DNA from: Planotetraspora mira
GTDB lineage: Bacteria > Actinomycetota > Actinomycetes > Streptosporangiales > Streptosporangiaceae
Length of the DNA: 64,000 nt
Assembly (NCBI RefSeq): GCF_016863275.1
Contig: NZ_BOOO01000010.1
Span: 1-64,000 of the forward strand
Direction of reading: 5' to 3'
Shown one piece after another: positions 26,405 to 56,865 of the stretch (its first letter is position 1; each line of letters starts with the position of its first letter). The position numbers and the translations under genes were made by a program. A model generated the notes under the pieces. It was not told the origin of the DNA. It saw nothing but the letters and a program-made list of their open reading frames with translations, and ran no database searches.

Positions 26405-28683
<2,279 letters not shown>

Positions 28684-38673: not shown

Positions 38674-39755
38674 GCGTCTTGCTGGATGCGACAGCGGGCC
38701 TGGGTTGGCCGACGAGTCCGGTCGCCCTACCCTGGGAGATCGCGACAGCAAGCCGGCCGTCGGGGCTTGGCTGGCCTCGATTTTCCGTTTCGCAGGTCGA
38801 AAGGACGGCGACCGTGTCCCAGACCCCCCTTCAACCTGGCGATTCACCGTTGGTACGAGAGGCATTGAGCTCCGTGGTTTCACGTGAAACAGCCGCACCC
38901 CCACTGGTGGCTGAATCTTCTGTCGGTTATTCGACCCGTAGTGGCGGGGATTGGCCGCGGCCTCCCCGCTGCCGGGTGCTGACCGTGTCCAACCAGAAGG
39001 GTGGGGTGGGCAAGACCACCACGTCGGTCAACCTCGCGGCGGCGCTGTCCATGCACGGGCAGCGCGTCCTCGTGGTGGATCTGGACCCGCAGGGGAACGC
39101 CTCGACCGCTCTCGCGACGGACCACCGGGCGGGAACGCCCTCGGTCTACCAGGTGCTGGTGGACGACCTGCCGCTCTCGTCGATCGTGAAGCCGGTGCCG
39201 GACATGCCCGGGCTCTTCTGTGCGCCCGCCACACTCGATCTGGCCGGCGCGGAGATCGAGCTGGTTCCCATGGTGGGCAGGGAGACGCGCCTGAAGCGTG
39301 CGCTGGCCGCCTTCGAGTCCATGGAATTCGACTACATCTTCATCGACTGCCCGCCATCCCTCGGCCTGCTGACCGTGAACGCGATGGCGGCGGCGCAGGA
39401 GGTGCTGATCCCCATCCAGTGCGAGTACTACGCGCTGGAAGGTCTCAGCCAGCTCCTGCAGAACGTCGAGCTCGTCCGCGTTCACCTGAACCAGACGCTG
39501 GCGCTGTCGACGATCCTCCTCACGATGTACGACGGCCGTACGCGGCTCGCGTCACAGGTCGCCGATGAGGTGCGGTCCCACTTCGGCGACACGGTTCTCG
39601 ACTCGGTGATCCCGCGCAGCGTCCGTCTGTCGGAGGCGCCGAGCTATGGGCAGTCGGTCATGACCTACGACCCGGGTTCGAGTGGTGCGATGGCGTACAT
39701 GGAGGCGGCTCGGGAGATCGCCTACCGTGCCGCGGCGCTCGCGGGAGCCTCGTAG
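38670..39755 (+). CDS. parA: Chromosome-partitioning ATPase ParA (Soj)
   Basis: This 361-residue Walker-type ATPase has a deviant Walker A NQKGGVGKTTT, Walker A' LVVDLDPQGN and Walker B IFIDCPP. The first ~100 residues precede the fold and are a poorly conserved extension. Within that extension, codons for VSRETA encode a near-perfect parS site at 38876-38891. ParA uses ATP-dependent DNA binding to move ParB-parS complexes and, in filamentous actinomycetes, polar chromosome segregation. The GTG start overlaps the rsmG stop. Confidence 0.95.
   Translation: MSVLLDATAGLGWPTSPVALPWEIATASRPSGLGWPRFSVSQVERTATVSQTPLQPGDSPLVREALSSVVSRETAAPPLVAESSVGYSTRSGGDWPRPPRCRVLTVSNQKGGVGKTTTSVNLAAALSMHGQRVLVVDLDPQGNASTALATDHRAGTPSVYQVLVDDLPLSSIVKPVPDMPGLFCAPATLDLAGAEIELVPMVGRETRLKRALAAFESMEFDYIFIDCPPSLGLLTVNAMAAAQEVLIPIQCEYYALEGLSQLLQNVELVRVHLNQTLALSTILLTMYDGRTRLASQVADEVRSHFGDTVLDSVIPRSVRLSEAPSYGQSVMTYDPGSSGAMAYMEAAREIAYRAAALAGAS
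38876..38891. other. parS site inside parA
   Basis: GGTTTCACGTGAAACA matches the consensus TGTTTCACGTGAAACA at 15 of 16 positions. It is read in frame as V-S-R-E-T in the N-terminal extension of parA. ParB would load here. Confidence 0.9.
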
Positions 39756-40236
39756 TCCGCTGCTGGGCCGTTCCCGTCGCGCGCAGCCGCGATGATTTCT
39801 CACCGCATCGCCGTTCATCGCCGCTGTCATCGCAGTCGCCGGCCGGAGGCGCCCGCTCCGAAGCCGCCCTCCGGCCTTCCCTCCATATGTCTGCCTCGCG
39901 CCCGCGACATGTGGGCCCTGGCGAACCTCCTCGTGTGGCGGGTGGACCGCGCGACAAGTGGGGGAGGGATGGCCCCCACGCCGTCCGGACCCGTGAGCGA
40001 ACTCCGGCCCCAGGATGCGTTCTTTCACGGTTCCCGGATCGACGGCCGATCACCTGCCGCCGGAGTCGCCCGTGGCGCCGACTGACCCATCACCTCGCTT
40101 GCCGTTGAGCCAGACTCTGTGCGCCGATGCTCATGCAGGGGGCCGCGCGGCGGTAACCTCTCGTGGTGTGTGCGTGAAGTGCCCAGTGGTCTCGGCCGCT
40201 GGGCACAGCCTTCTGTGCGGTGCGTAAGGAGCAGCG
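39756..40236. other. parA-parB intergenic region with hairpin
   Basis: This 481-bp gap has no credible gene. Frames on both strands lack family features. A strong hairpin precedes parB: GTGCCCAGTGG (40179-40189) pairs with CCGCTGGGCAC (40196-40206) around TCTCGG, one G-U pair, with no T-tract. It could end the parA transcript or shape the parB leader. AAGGAG lies 5 bp before the parB GTG. Confidence 0.45.
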
Positions 40237-41196
40237 GTGACTCAGCAGCGTCGGGGACTGGGCAAGGGGCTTGGAGCTCTGATCCCCACGGGGCCGATCG
40301 TGGATCCATCGGTCGCAGCGAGTTCTCCCGCTGAGGAATCAGTGGATTCGGGGTTGAAGCCCGTCGACGGGGCCTACTTCCAGGAGATTCCGGTCGCGGC
40401 GATCTCCCCCAACCCCCGCCAGCCGCGTGACGTCTTCGACGAGGACCGCCTCGACGAGCTGGCCGCCTCCATCAAGGAGGTGGGTCTCCTCCAGCCGGTC
40501 GTCGTGCGCTCGTTGGGGGGCGGACAGTTCGAGCTCATCATGGGGGAGCGTCGGTGGCGGGCCTCCCAACTCGCCGGTTTCGAGACCATCCCGGCCATCG
40601 TCCGTAGCACGCAGGACGACGAGATGCTGCGCGAGGCGCTCATCGAGAACCTCCAGCGCGAGCAGCTCAACTCGCTTGAGGAGGCGGCGGCCTACCAGCA
40701 ACTGCTCGACGACTTCGGAGCCACGCACGAGGTGCTGGCCCGGAAGGTCGGCCGGTCGCGTTCGCACATCACCAACACGCTGCGGCTGCTGAACCTCCCG
40801 CCGAACGTCCAGGTGCGCCTCGCCGCGGGTGTGATCAGTGCGGGGCACGCGCGTGCGCTGCTTTCGCTGGACGACCCGGCCGCACAGGATCGGCTCGCCG
40901 GACGGATCGTGGCCGAGGGACTGTCGGTCCGGACGGTGGAGGAGATCGTGGCGCTGGGAGACGCCAGCTCTGGTCCCGCCCCTCGGCAGCCGAGGAAGAA
41001 GCAGCCGACCGCGCCGGCTCTGCGTCACTTGGCCGACAGGCTCTCGGATCATTTCGAGACCAAGGTGAGGGTCGACCTCGGCCAGCGGAAGGGAAAGATC
41101 GTGGTGGAGTTCTCCACGATCGACGACCTGGAGCGCATCATCGGCACGATGGCGCCGGAGGCGAGCAACGCGATGCGAGGGCTTTCCCCGGAATAG
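40237..41196 (+). CDS. parB: Chromosome-partitioning protein ParB (Spo0J)
   Basis: This 319-residue CTP-binding clamp has the N-terminal ParB domain, with ERRWRASQLAG (CTP-binding box) and ENLQREQLNSLEEA. The HTH that reads parS is AAAYQQLLDDFGATHEVLARKVGRSRSHITNTLRLL in part, with VGRSRSHI as recognition helix. The C-terminal dimerisation domain ends the protein. It spreads from parS sites and anchors ParA and SMC activity. Four parS sites lie nearby (one in parA, three just downstream). Confidence 0.96.
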   Translation: MTQQRRGLGKGLGALIPTGPIVDPSVAASSPAEESVDSGLKPVDGAYFQEIPVAAISPNPRQPRDVFDEDRLDELAASIKEVGLLQPVVVRSLGGGQFELIMGERRWRASQLAGFETIPAIVRSTQDDEMLREALIENLQREQLNSLEEAAAYQQLLDDFGATHEVLARKVGRSRSHITNTLRLLNLPPNVQVRLAAGVISAGHARALLSLDDPAAQDRLAGRIVAEGLSVRTVEEIVALGDASSGPAPRQPRKKQPTAPALRHLADRLSDHFETKVRVDLGQRKGKIVVEFSTIDDLERIIGTMAPEASNAMRGLSPE

Positions 41197-41225
41197 GAGC
41201 GCTTCCCCGGAATGGAGGGCGGCGC

Positions 41226-41395
41226 TGTTTCACGTGAAACAGCGCCGCCTCGTCGTCTCTCCACACCCCGCCGTCGATGTTTCACGTGAAACGGGTCGCG
41301 GTAAGAGGATGCCCGGTCGCTCAGACCGGTACGTGCCACGCCGGGGGAGTGGCTCCCCTCGTTGTGAGGCGGCGGGGCGTGTTTCACGTGAAACG
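41226..41395. other. Three parS sites downstream of parB
   Basis: Site 1 is TGTTTCACGTGAAACA at 41226-41241, a perfect consensus embedded in a longer perfect palindrome 41221-41246. Site 2, TGTTTCACGTGAAACG, is at 41278-41293. Site 3, the same sequence, is at 41380-41395. With the parA copy they form a four-site loading centre close to oriC, the usual position for the chromosome segregation origin. Confidence 0.93.
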
Positions 41396-53423: not shown

Positions 53424-53533
53424 CTCTGAGCTCCTTGCTTTGTCCAGCGCCCCCGAACTGACCGTAGCCTGGTGATTGCTAGGTGTGTATCCCCCCTAGG
53501 TGACACCAGGATGCGACGGGGGAGAATCGTTCC

Positions 53534-53575
53534 GTGACCGAAGGACCTACCCAGCCTTGTCCGTTTCAAATCTGA
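53534..53575 (+). CDS. Possible 13-codon upstream ORF before the CCA-adding enzyme gene
   Basis: GTG at 53534 follows a GGGGGAGA ribosome-binding site with good spacing and encodes a short peptide (MTEGPTQPCPFQI) that stops at 53573-53575, overlapping the main gene start in another frame. It could modulate translation of the downstream gene or be coincidental. Confidence 0.3.
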   Translation: MTEGPTQPCPFQI

Positions 53576-54993
53576 GCGACCGCCAGCAGCGAGCCGTAGA
53601 TGACCTGTTCAGGCGTATTGCCCCGGTGGCCGACGAGCTCGGAGAGCTGTTCGCGGCCCGCGGGCACGAGTTGGCCCTCGTCGGCGGATCCGTCCGCGAC
53701 GTCCTGCTCGGCCGTGTCGGCCACGACCTCGATCTGACCACGGACGCCAGGCCCGAGCGCGTACTGGAAATAGTCAAGGACTGGGCCGAGGCCGTCTGGA
53801 CGATCGGGATCGACTTCGGCACGGTCGGCGTTCGCAAGGGCGGCTGGCAGCTGGAGATCACCACATACCGCAGCGAGTCGTACGACCCCGGCTCGCGCAA
53901 ACCCGAGGTGTCCTACGGCGACACGCTGGACGGCGACCTCCGCCGCCGGGACTTCGCGGTCAACGCGATGGCGGTCCGGGTGCCGAGCCACGAGTTCGTC
54001 GACCCGTTCGGCGGGCTGCCCGACCTCGCGGCGAAGGTGCTGCGCACGCCGGGAACGCCTGAGGACTCGTTCGACGACGATCCGCTGCGGATGCTCCGCG
54101 CGGCGCGCTTCGCCTCCCAGCTCGGTTTCTCGGTGGATCCGAAGGCCGTAGAGGCGATGACGGCGATGGCCGGCCGGATCGAGATCGTGTCGGCCGAGCG
54201 CATCCGCGAGGAGCTGGACAAGCTGATCTGTGGTGCCGGGCCCCGGGACGGCCTGGCCATGCTGGTGGACACGGGCCTCGCGGCCCACGTCCTGCCCGAG
54301 CTGCCCAAGCTCCGGCTGGAGATCGACGAGCATCACCGGCACAAGGACGTCTACGAGCACACATTGATCGTGTTGGAACAGGCGGTGGGGCTGGAGACCT
54401 CCGGCCCCGACCGGGTGCTCCGGTGGGCCGCGCTCCTGCACGACGTGGGCAAGCCGAAGACCCGCCGCAACGAGCCCGGCGGCCGGGTCTCCTTCCACCA
54501 CCACGAGGTGGTCGGGGCCCAGATGGCCAAGAAGCGGATGAGCGAGCTCAAATTCCCCAAGGACGTCGTGGCCGACGTTTCGCGGCTGGTCGAGCTCCAC
54601 CTGCGGTTCCACGGGTACGGCTCAGGGGAGTGGACGGACAGCGCGGTGCGCCGGTACGTCCGTGATGCCGGGCATCTGCTGGAACGGCTGCACAAATTGA
54701 CCCGAGCCGACTGCACGACCCGCAACAAGCGGAAGGCGGCCGCCCTCTCGCAGACGTACGACCAGTTGGAGGAGCGCATCTCCCGGCTGGCCGAGGAGGA
54801 GGAGCTGGCCAAGATCCGGCCGGAGCTCGACGGCAACGAGATCCAGGAGATCCTCGGCATCTCTCCCGGTCCGGTGATCGGCAGGGCCTACAAGCACATG
54901 CTGGACATCCGCATGGACGAGGGCATGATCGGCAAAGAGGCCGCCAAGGAGGCCCTCCTGAAATGGGCCCACTCCCAAGGCATCCTCCCCTGA
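53557..54993 (+). CDS. pcnB: CCA tRNA nucleotidyltransferase
   Basis: This 478-residue class II nucleotidyltransferase has LVGGSVRDVLLGRVGHDLDLTTDA (catalytic Asp residues) and RRRDFAVNAMA, then a C-terminal HD-like metal-binding region (HHRHKDVYEHTLIVLEQ, LLHDVGKPKTR) near residues 270-320. It adds CCA to tRNA 3' ends. tRNA-Ala in this window lacks an encoded CCA. The TTG start at 53557 is uncertain. A better-spaced GTG in another frame (53534) opens a 13-codon ORF ending at 53575, which may be an upstream ORF. Confidence 0.85.
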   Translation: MSVSNLSDRQQRAVDDLFRRIAPVADELGELFAARGHELALVGGSVRDVLLGRVGHDLDLTTDARPERVLEIVKDWAEAVWTIGIDFGTVGVRKGGWQLEITTYRSESYDPGSRKPEVSYGDTLDGDLRRRDFAVNAMAVRVPSHEFVDPFGGLPDLAAKVLRTPGTPEDSFDDDPLRMLRAARFASQLGFSVDPKAVEAMTAMAGRIEIVSAERIREELDKLICGAGPRDGLAMLVDTGLAAHVLPELPKLRLEIDEHHRHKDVYEHTLIVLEQAVGLETSGPDRVLRWAALLHDVGKPKTRRNEPGGRVSFHHHEVVGAQMAKKRMSELKFPKDVVADVSRLVELHLRFHGYGSGEWTDSAVRRYVRDAGHLLERLHKLTRADCTTRNKRKAAALSQTYDQLEERISRLAEEEELAKIRPELDGNEIQEILGISPGPVIGRAYKHMLDIRMDEGMIGKEAAKEALLKWAHSQGILP

Positions 54994-55005
54994 CCCTCCC
55001 CGCTC

Positions 55006-55376
55006 CCCTTGCGCGTGATCATGCACAGGTTCGGTGAGATGGGCGATGACCTGCCCTTCCCTTGGGCGTGATCATGCGCAGGTTCGGTCATGTGGCTGTT
55101 GAGCAGGTGCGATGCACGTCGTGATCATGCACAAGTTCGCGATCAACGGGTCTGACCTGGGCGTTCATTGAGCGTGATCATGCACGCTCATCGGTTGTGC
55201 ATGATCACGGAGCAGGAAACCCCAGATGAACGGCATCGCGCCCGAATCTGCGCATGATCACGAATAGAGAAATCCCAGTTCAGCGACCCTTTGGCCGAAC
55301 CTGTGCATGATCACGCCCAGAGAAAGGGCTGCTCAGAGGGGCTTTCTACGAACGTGTGCATGATCACGCGCAAGGG
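55006..55376. repeat. Eight-copy inverted array with exact 53-bp period
   Basis: Four direct copies of GTGATCATGCAC start at 55015, 55068, 55121 and 55174 (second copy has GCGC). Four inverted copies start at 55197, 55250, 55303 and 55356 (second inverted has GCGC). Spacing within each arm is exactly 53 bp. Outer flanks CCCTTGCGC (55006-55014) and GCGCAAGGG (55368-55376) also match, so the whole 371-bp region is a large, imperfect inverted repeat. The central 12-bp cores (55174-55185 and 55197-55208) form a hairpin with an 11-base loop. Several intervening segments share a further Trp-like GGTTCGG element. No gene is seen in the gap 54994-55408. Confidence 0.9.
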
Positions 55377-55408
55377 AAGAGGGGGGTGGGGGCCTCTAAG
55401 GTGGGGGG

Positions 55409-56692
55409 ATGAACGACGGGGACATTCTTCGGCTGGATGAGGACCATGTGTGGCACCCGTACGCGGCTGTGCCGTCCACCGTCCCCGTCCACGCCGTCCG
55501 CCGGGCGGAGGGTGTGCGGCTGACCCTGGCCGACGGTCGTGAGCTCGTCGATGGCATGTCGTCCTGGTGGGCCGCGATCCACGGATACAACCACCCCCGG
55601 CTCAACGCCGCCGTCCGCGACCAACTCGACGACATGGCCCACGTCATGTTCGGCGGCCTCACCCACGAGCCCGCCGTACGGCTGGCCGGGACGCTGGCCC
55701 GTATGACGGGGCTCGACCGGGTGTTCCTCGCCGACTCCGGTTCGGTGGCCGTCGAGGTGGCCATCAAGATGGCCTTCCAGTACGCCGCGGCCACCGGCCG
55801 CGCGGGCCGTTCGAAACTGCTCACCGTCCGCGGCGGCTACCACGGCGACACCTTCGGGGCGATGTCGGTCTGTGACCCGGTCAACGGCATGCACCACCTG
55901 TTCTCCGGCCTGCTGCCCCAGCACGTGTTCGCGCCGATCCCTCCAGGGGGGTACGGCTCCCGCCCGGGAGAGGCGGTCGAAGCCCGCCCCGACGCGGCCT
56001 ACCTCGGGGAACTGGAGGCCCTCGTCGCGGCGCACGCGCACGAGTTGGCCGCGATCATCGTGGAACCGGTGGTCCAGGGTGCGGGAGGCATGCGGTTCTA
56101 CCATCCGGCGTACCTCCGCCGGCTGCGTGAGCTCGCCGACGAGCACGACGTCCTGCTGATCGCCGACGAGATCGCCACCGGCTTCGGGCGGACGGGTGAG
56201 ATGTTCGGCTGTGACCACGCGGGGATCAGGCCGGACATCATGTGCGTCGGCAAGGCCCTGACGGGCGGATACATGACCCTCGCCGCCACGCTGAGCACCA
56301 GGGAGGTCGCCGACGGCATCGGCGTCCTGATGCACGGGCCGACCTACATGGGCAACCCGCTCGCGACGGCCGTGGCCAACGCCTCCCTCGAGTTGCTGGC
56401 CGAACGCCCCTGGCGGGAAGAGGTCAAACAGATCGAGGCGGCACTCCTGGACGGCCTGGCGGAAGCCGTTCACATGCCCGGGGTCCAGGACGTCCGGGTC
56501 CTGGGCGCGATCGGTGTCATCGAGACGATCGAACCCGTGGATGTGGCGAAAATTCAGGACGTCGTGATGGGCCATGACGTCTGGCTCCGGCCCTTCGGGC
56601 GCCTGATCTACACCATGCCGCCCTACGCGTGCCGGCCCGAGGAGATCGCGATGATCACCCGGGCCATGGTCGCGGCGGCGGCGAGCCTGTAG
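55409..56692 (+). CDS. bioA: Adenosylmethionine--8-amino-7-oxononanoate aminotransferase
   Basis: This 427-residue fold-type I aminotransferase has HVWHPYAA (start-region signature of BioA), [13 protein letters not shown], the PLP region [14 protein letters not shown] and Lys in [11 protein letters not shown]. It converts 8-amino-7-oxononanoate to 7,8-diaminopelargonate using SAM as amino donor in biotin synthesis. The ATG follows GGTGGGGGG. No other bio genes are in the window. It ends just before a 12-bp tandem repeat. Confidence 0.92.
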
Positions 56693-56721
56693 CGCTCAGC
56701 ACGCCTCTCAGCACGCCGCCT

Positions 56722-56865
56722 CAGTCGGTCGTTCAGCCCGTCGTTCAGTCGGTCGTTCAGTCGGTCGTTCAGTCGGTCGTTCAGCCCGTCGTTCAGTCGG
56801 TCGTTCAGTCGGTCGTTCAGTCGGTCGTTCAGTCGGTCGTTCAGTCGGTCGTTCAGTCGGTCGCG
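56722..56865. repeat. 12-bp tandem repeat between bioA and MFS gene
   Basis: Twelve consecutive copies of CAGTCGGTCGTT, or close variants, run from 56722 to 56865. Units 2 and 6 read CAGCCCGTCGTT. The MFS stop codon falls within the last unit. The array opens long frames on both strands (Gln-Ser-Val-Val and Arg-Leu-Asn-Asp repeats) that are not believed to be genes. It may serve as a transcription roadblock or end-of-transcript spacer for the convergent genes. Confidence 0.85.

Follow-up and report, generated by a model that had tools for sequence, protein, structure and literature searches.

The gap between a pcnB-like and a bioA-like gene in Planotetraspora mira was found to hold a two-armed DNA array in which a short core word recurs on an exact 53-bp step, and the evidence that this array and its many counterparts are phased, selected, two-armed and placed at the borders of transcription units is strong. 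An earlier note on this DNA had offered a protein-binding platform as one of several readings, and this is the one that suits the array best. We tentatively favour a host-maintained binding array on which a putative sequence-specific protein would form a bridged, insulating block at the unit borders; that the block insulates is something we infer. If true, the arrays would represent a sequence-specific, lattice-forming DNA-binding system that is used hundreds of times per genome at unit borders.

The features of the gap are given below by their position in the window, which is the whole 64,000-nucleotide stretch of DNA analysed. Each was read from the sequence unless another source is named.

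53500-54993, + strand: pcnB-like gene (ORF list; Pfam PolyA_pol, PolyA_pol_RNAbd and HD)
54998-55014, + strand: lead-in of the left arm, C-rich and G-poor, ahead of its outermost core
55015-55026, + strand: left arm core 1, outermost, GTGATCATGCAC
55030-55053, + strand: framework of the first link, TTCG at 55030-55033 and GACCTG at 55048-55053 (sequence against the unit profile)
55068-55079, + strand: left arm core 2, GTGATCATGCGC
55121-55132, + strand: left arm core 3, GTGATCATGCAC
55174-55185, + strand: left arm core 4, innermost, GTGATCATGCAC
55174-55208, no strand: apex, the two innermost cores facing each other, 23 bp start to start
55197-55208, - strand: right arm innermost core, GTGATCATGCAC
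55250-55261, - strand: right arm core, GTGATCATGCGC
55303-55314, - strand: right arm core, GTGATCATGCAC
55356-55367, - strand: right arm outermost core, GTGATCATGCAC
55368-55393, - strand: right-arm lead-in, C-rich on this strand
55394-55408, + strand: CTCTAAGGTGGGGGG immediately 5' of the bioA ATG (sequence; alignment with G022, G104 and G125)
55409-56692, + strand: bioA-like gene, class-III aminotransferase (ORF list; Pfam Aminotran_3)

All eight core positions proposed in the earlier note, four on each strand, were exact, as was the 53-bp step within both arms, and the outer flanks are indeed mirror images, with CCCTTGCGC ahead of the first core and GCGCAAGGG behind the last. The single core word that it described is found in six of the eight cores (GTGATCATGCAC), but the cores at 55068 and 55250 read GTGATCATGCGC. 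The array holds no credible gene; the ORFs that the mechanical list places across its edges are spurious. The TGA stop of the pcnB-like gene, which is of the poly(A)-polymerase type, is located 21 bp upstream of the first core. Matches to the core word with at most two mismatches numbered 14 in the window, against a mean of 4.9 and a largest value of 10 in 100 shuffles. Between 54900 and 55500 none of 4227 Rfam families gave a match up to E 5, and no intrinsic terminator, sought as a G+C-rich hairpin followed by a T run, was found. The word CTCTAAGGTGGGGGG upstream of bioA is kept in three relatives (G022, G104 and G125) and has what we take to be a resemblance to the promoter of a leaderless message; it may be the promoter of a leaderless bioA message.

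The array was also considered as a parS centromere, for which a match to GTTTCACGTGAAAC near the origin would be expected. The origin region is indicated by gyrB (26405-28375) and by four perfect parS-like sites at 38.9-41.4 kb (38877-41394), of which three cluster in 170 bp at 41.2-41.4 kb. The array is not itself a parS centromere, as the parS-like sites are at 15.1 (one mismatch), 38.9 and 41.2-41.4 kb, outside it. Furthermore, the whole genome (9.03 Mb, 100 contigs) was found to carry GTGATCATGCRC 384 times in forward and 399 times in reverse orientation, while the same pattern read backwards gave no match, and core pairs exactly 53 bp apart numbered 239 and 253 against none in the control. 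With 783 cores genome-wide, a site special to the pcnB-bioA locus or to the origin, from which the earlier note had placed the array about 22 kb away, is not supported. Hundreds of dispersed copies at random spacing had been named there as the mark of a simple repeat; the hundreds of copies are present, but their spacing is fixed and not random.

The units of an arm follow one plan. In the profile of 222 internal units, core positions 0-9 are each conserved at 99% or more, position 10 is A or G and position 11 is C (0.91), and the link that follows contains a framework of TTCG at 15-18, YGACCTG at 32-38, a weaker AAC.C at 44-47 and C at 52, with positions 19-31 nearly free. Since the innermost core of an arm mostly has no such framework behind it, the framework belongs to links that join two cores, and the arm is a fence in which the cores, 11-12 bp long, are posts set every 53 bp and the framework links are the rails. 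The letters after the core are nearest to consensus in the outermost unit and fade inward, from 0.97 to 0.74 for A at position 10 and from 0.77 to 0.31 for G at position 14, as measured from unit 1 (n=103) to unit 4 (n=35). The tract before the outermost cores is in general rich in C (0.49-0.65) and poor in G (0.11-0.17), unlike other 3' flanks. Some units carry variants that recur throughout a genome, such as GTGATCATGCAG with AAGTTC or AACTTC in G077; in G059 TTCG is replaced by TTCC. Such variants give the impression that the recognition word shifted from one lineage to the next.

Same-strand core pairs no more than 80 bp apart were spaced 52-54 bp in 505 of 539 cases; like the arm and centre-spacing statistics, these pairs come mostly from loci fetched with a 53-bp pattern, and the step counts of the named Planotetraspora loci, fetched in that way, lean to 53. 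Free of this bias are the whole-contig analysis and a whole-genome scan in which any step of 37-65 bp was allowed, and in the latter 53 bp was overwhelmingly the commonest step in genera g1, g59, g34 and g65. It was proposed in the earlier note that all cores lie on one face of the DNA, and this was borne out, as the step of 53 bp (with 52 and 54 tolerated) and that of 41 bp in another genus are about five and four helical turns. Tandem repeats of about 30 bp, consisting of a core-like word and a CCCCCTTGG-type flank, were also seen beside arrays at L073 (P. thailandica) and at G125:C1:28555-28625.

Neighbouring arms, defined as having at least two cores each and lying within 300 bp of one another, converge in 63 of 63 cases, a plus arm being followed by a minus arm, and this order is interrupted only by occasional stray single cores. 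In Planotetraspora the two arms most often meet at a centre spacing of 23 bp, as in 15 of 63 two-armed arrays, and many other spacings occur. Arm lengths were equal in 30 of 61 pairs where 18.4 were expected (P 0.0009, rho 0.43); since orthologous loci are counted in the arm statistics and long gaps could favour both arms, this equality supports a joint complex of the two arms but does not prove it. Facing units of opposite arms are 0.41 complementary, hardly above the 0.38 of non-facing units, and coupling of the arms is thus not by base pairing. A second arm is not always required, since 61 of the 158 arms stand alone.

Arrays were found to favour certain gaps between genes. The 26 arrays on two contigs lie in 11 convergent, 15 codirectional and no divergent gaps, compared with 118, 461 and 117 in a background of 696 gaps (P 0.0017 for convergent enrichment), the two contigs being syntenic and hence not independent, and the genes being called by our own script and not taken from curated annotation. 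The outer neighbour of an arm is a 3' end in 110 of 158 arms, at a median of 13-18 bp, and a 5' end in the other 48, at a median of 80-116 bp; in 26 of the 110 arms adjoining a 3' end the TGA of the gene is inside the outermost core, and a single arm of the 158 lies within a called gene. With 3' ends close and 5' ends distant, the arrays mark borders and leave room for promoters, and they sit at transcription-unit borders. The cores are probably gripped by a putative protein that would mark the end of a gene unit. Where a single arm lies in a codirectional gap, it runs sense in 19 cases and antisense in 14, and a directional terminator is not indicated. That arrays replace hairpin terminators was also considered and rejected, since the best hairpins at arrayed 3' ends, although weaker in raw median (-16.7 against -21.9 kcal/mol), did not differ once composition was controlled with dinucleotide shuffles, 16% at arrayed ends against 28% falling below z -2 (P 0.35).

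Conservation at the pcnB-bioA gap, which the earlier note had wished to see examined, was confirmed. An array is present in all five of the other array-bearing genomes examined there, four of Planotetraspora and that of Planotetraspora sp. A-T 1434 (G059), and is worn down in one of them (G104, with 60 of 96 core letters gapped), while no array was found behind pcnB in 13 genomes of other genera. The identity of the cores to those of the window is 0.97 in G022, 0.98 in G125 (P. kaengkrachanensis NBRC 104272), 0.89 in G077 and 0.89 in G059, and that of the links is 0.82, 0.62, 0.51 and 0.47, respectively. In G125 and G059 the outermost core includes the pcnB stop, and a locus of P. silvatica matches the window at 96% identity. 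Given an array in the same gap of all five genomes, recent arm duplication and inversion, the second origin allowed in the earlier note, is unlikely to be the sole cause. Some units elsewhere are fresh tandem copies: at G125:C1:150746-150863 two adjacent units have an identical 53-bp sequence, a sign of arm growth by tandem copying.

The same picture was obtained over a 382-kb contig of the P. mira genome (G000) that contains 13 arrays. In an automatic test, ten of these had an array of the same polarity at the orthologous gap of G125, two more were shared by position and one was missing. Across 52 orthologous units of the two genomes, in which cores with no more than three mismatches were required on both sides (the pcnB-bioA alignment was made without this requirement), core positions 0-10 differ by 2.4%, TTC by 9%, YGACCTG by 20% and positions 19-31 by 39%. 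Arrays are kept at shared gaps, and selection on the 53-bp period, as had been suggested, is supported. The core words kept amid drifting letters at shared loci argue for selection through use by the host rather than for parasitic copying, and the pattern of substitution points to host-level selection for DNA recognition.

The bacteria that bear such arrays are a small group of soil bacteria with hundreds of core copies per genome. Arrays were found in five of five Planotetraspora genomes examined, in Planotetraspora sp. A-T 1434 and in some related genera of the family. A scan of named genomes for core pairs 53 bp apart gave at least 97 stretches, and the 97 listed (L009-L105) are all from Planotetraspora. 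With a strict motif, 33 of 396 genomes across the phylum had a match, at most two per genome except in P. mira itself. When the core GTGATCWTGYA was allowed any step of 37-65 bp, 16 of 297 family genomes matched, in a scan keyed to this word and escaped by arrays with other cores; the matches include five of five genomes of g1, one of g59, two of g34, four of 15 of g65 and one of g51, and two genomes of g50 had five pairs each without a fixed step. None of four genomes sampled from the order outside the family had a match. In g65 the presence is patchy, with arrays in four of 15 genomes, namely G119, G581, G588 and G610, remnants in one (G594, two pairs) and none in ten.

The loci of g65 and g34 were selected from pattern hits. 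The element of g65 (29 loci) is stereotyped, having three cores in 40 of 48 arms, an apex spacing of 13 bp in 12 of 19 cases, steps of 53, 52 and 54 bp in 72, 14 and 14 occurrences, and an outermost core that hardly varies, being in 48 copies the long word GTGATCTTGTAGTTTGTCGCA, whose tenth letter is T or C. In g34 steps of 53, 52 and 51 bp occur 32, 5 and 2 times, and 16 of 18 steps in g51 measure 41 bp. In a gyrB tree g1 groups with g59, g34 falls inside g65, and array-bearing and array-free genomes of g65 are interspersed, partly with low support. The patchy presence fits repeated loss and repeated gain alike, and G594, with its two remaining pairs, and G104, with its sparse set, look like cases of loss. 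Within g65 this patchiness offers matched genomes for tracing the binding protein.

The same half-motif occurs in g50 and g48 as hairpins or inverted pairs. Tight hairpins were seen in G089 (L194-L198), and inverted pairs without the 53-bp step in g50 (L164-L171; G050 and G090); in several cases the copies in G089 and g50 are near gene ends. In G090 the half-motif copies at L172-L174 and L177 are single or loosely spaced, and the genome has no phased arrays.

Under the binding-array reading that we favour, the putative protein would occupy one core after another and contact the next copy over each intervening link. The two arms would lie side by side, bridged outward from the apex, and the bridged block would halt RNA polymerase, possibly helped by Rho that loads at the C-rich lead-in, and would in this way insulate the genes to either side. 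H-NS filaments in their bridged form are reported to favour Rho-dependent termination in vitro (PMC4337669), and a DNA-bridging filament of this kind, aiding termination, is similar to what is proposed here. Against insulation it can be said that single arms have no clear orientation bias, that the weaker hairpins at arrayed 3' ends vanish under the composition control, that two arms are not always needed and that promoter avoidance alone could produce the gap preferences. A narrower form of the proposal, in which a dedicated protein would zip the inward arms together from the palindromic apex on the 53-bp or 41-bp lattice and the arrays would be direction-independent insulators, seems to us somewhat unlikely. 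If true, bridged DNA-hairpin zippers punctuating the chromosome at unit borders would be a new class of bacterial nucleoprotein, and would parallel in bacteria the insulator or terminator arrays of eukaryotes.

It was also considered that the arrays are chromosome-organising sites, at which bound protein would bridge DNA within and between arrays and so fold or anchor the nucleoid, gene ends being where they do least harm. Hundreds of cores genome-wide, convergent coupled arms, single arms without a clear preference relative to transcription and a frequency of about one array per 30 kb on the two contigs examined are all in keeping with this. However, arrays are not clearly evenly spaced along the chromosome, with CVs of 0.63 and 0.73 where random placement gave a mean of 0.94 and a 5% quantile of 0.61, overlap with stop codons and a C-rich lead-in would be superfluous, and many family genomes, including ten of 15 in g65, are without an array by the GTGATCWTGYA pattern, so that a folding role would have to be dispensable. 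We regard this explanation as unlikely.

Quite unlikely is a set of mobile or selfish repeats, MITE-like or REP-like, that gather between genes because they are least harmful at 3' ends, even though the distribution is patchy, the arms are inverted and the half-motif of g50 and g48 is hairpin-like. The arrays shared with G125 at orthologous gaps and the cores intact in old copies speak against it, as does a viral_contigs collection in which no 53-bp pair of GTGATCWTGYA was found. A MITE or other mobile element, which would be expected at non-orthologous places, is not supported by these shared gaps (ten of 13, and two more by position). REP/BIME elements with RAYT are described as present in more than 100 copies per genome, extragenic, arranged in inverted pairs and species-specific, with proposed roles in chromosome organisation and transcription termination (PMC2817692). 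The arrays are like them in being numerous, extragenic, paired in inverted order and species-specific, but BIMEs alternate in orientation, whereas the arrays are runs of two to six cores facing the same way on an exact 53-bp lattice and converging on a centre. This candidate was set aside because all 63 neighbouring arm pairs converge and because Y1_Tnp (PF01797) was not found in eight of 13 array-bearing genomes, that of P. mira included; it was found in the other five and in five of 14 control genomes.

An RNA element in the 3' untranslated region, serving as the target of an RNA-binding protein or a ribonuclease or folding into a long hairpin, would suit arms that begin shortly after stop codons and an apex that is palindromic, and a large structured RNA or cruciform had been among the readings of the earlier note. 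Nonetheless, 362 distinct units show no helix-like covariation, facing units have next to no excess complementarity, Rfam was empty, a strict step of whole helical turns would be useless in RNA and 48 of 158 arms adjoin a 5' end, which together make this very improbable. The large structured RNA or cruciform is not supported either, on the same covariation, complementarity and Rfam results.

That the cores are DNA-uptake words, a genus-specific 12-mer kept through uptake of own DNA, is hardly credible, since uptake words occur singly and many lie within genes, and here a short genus-specific word in hundreds of copies and in inverted pairs between genes stands in phased rows with conserved links, with one of 158 arms in a called gene. 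The genus-specific word, the hundreds of copies and the inverted intergenic pairs are what the arrays have in common with the uptake sequences of Neisseria and Pasteurellaceae, for which we know of no phased rows or links. Intragenic patterns of uptake words have been described (PMC2346458).

Other described systems were compared with the arrays by their anatomy. An H-NS-type filament differs from the putative protein proposed here in that H-NS is not known to recognise a 12-bp word repeated at fixed lattice intervals. Like the arrays, MIRU are actinobacterial intergenic repeats, tandem, some with units of about 53 bp, and their edges overlap stop codons; whole MIRU units resemble one another and all point the same way, and on this definition MIRU were rejected, as the free link positions of the arrays are near background and the arms converge. 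Eukaryotic polymerase I terminator arrays, such as the Sal boxes of TTF-I, are rows of protein-binding words behind genes that stop the polymerase. The arrays share the rows of words behind genes, but are bacterial, occur at hundreds of loci and have mirrored arms, and their single arms show no clear directional preference. A CRISPR array was rejected because the arms converge and the links share a framework rather than being unrelated spacers.

None of the described repeats compared is known to share the anatomy of the arrays, and a literature search limited mainly to open-access journal papers returned no description of such arrays. Their anatomy is unlike that of REP/BIME, mobile elements, CRISPR, intrinsic terminators, Rfam families and MIRU; on a stricter view they could be a form of extragenic repeats.

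A further repeat was seen in the window 3' of the bioA-like gene, where a 12-bp tandem repeat, TCAGTCGGTCGT, extends over 56721-56863 in twelve copies with 93% matches.
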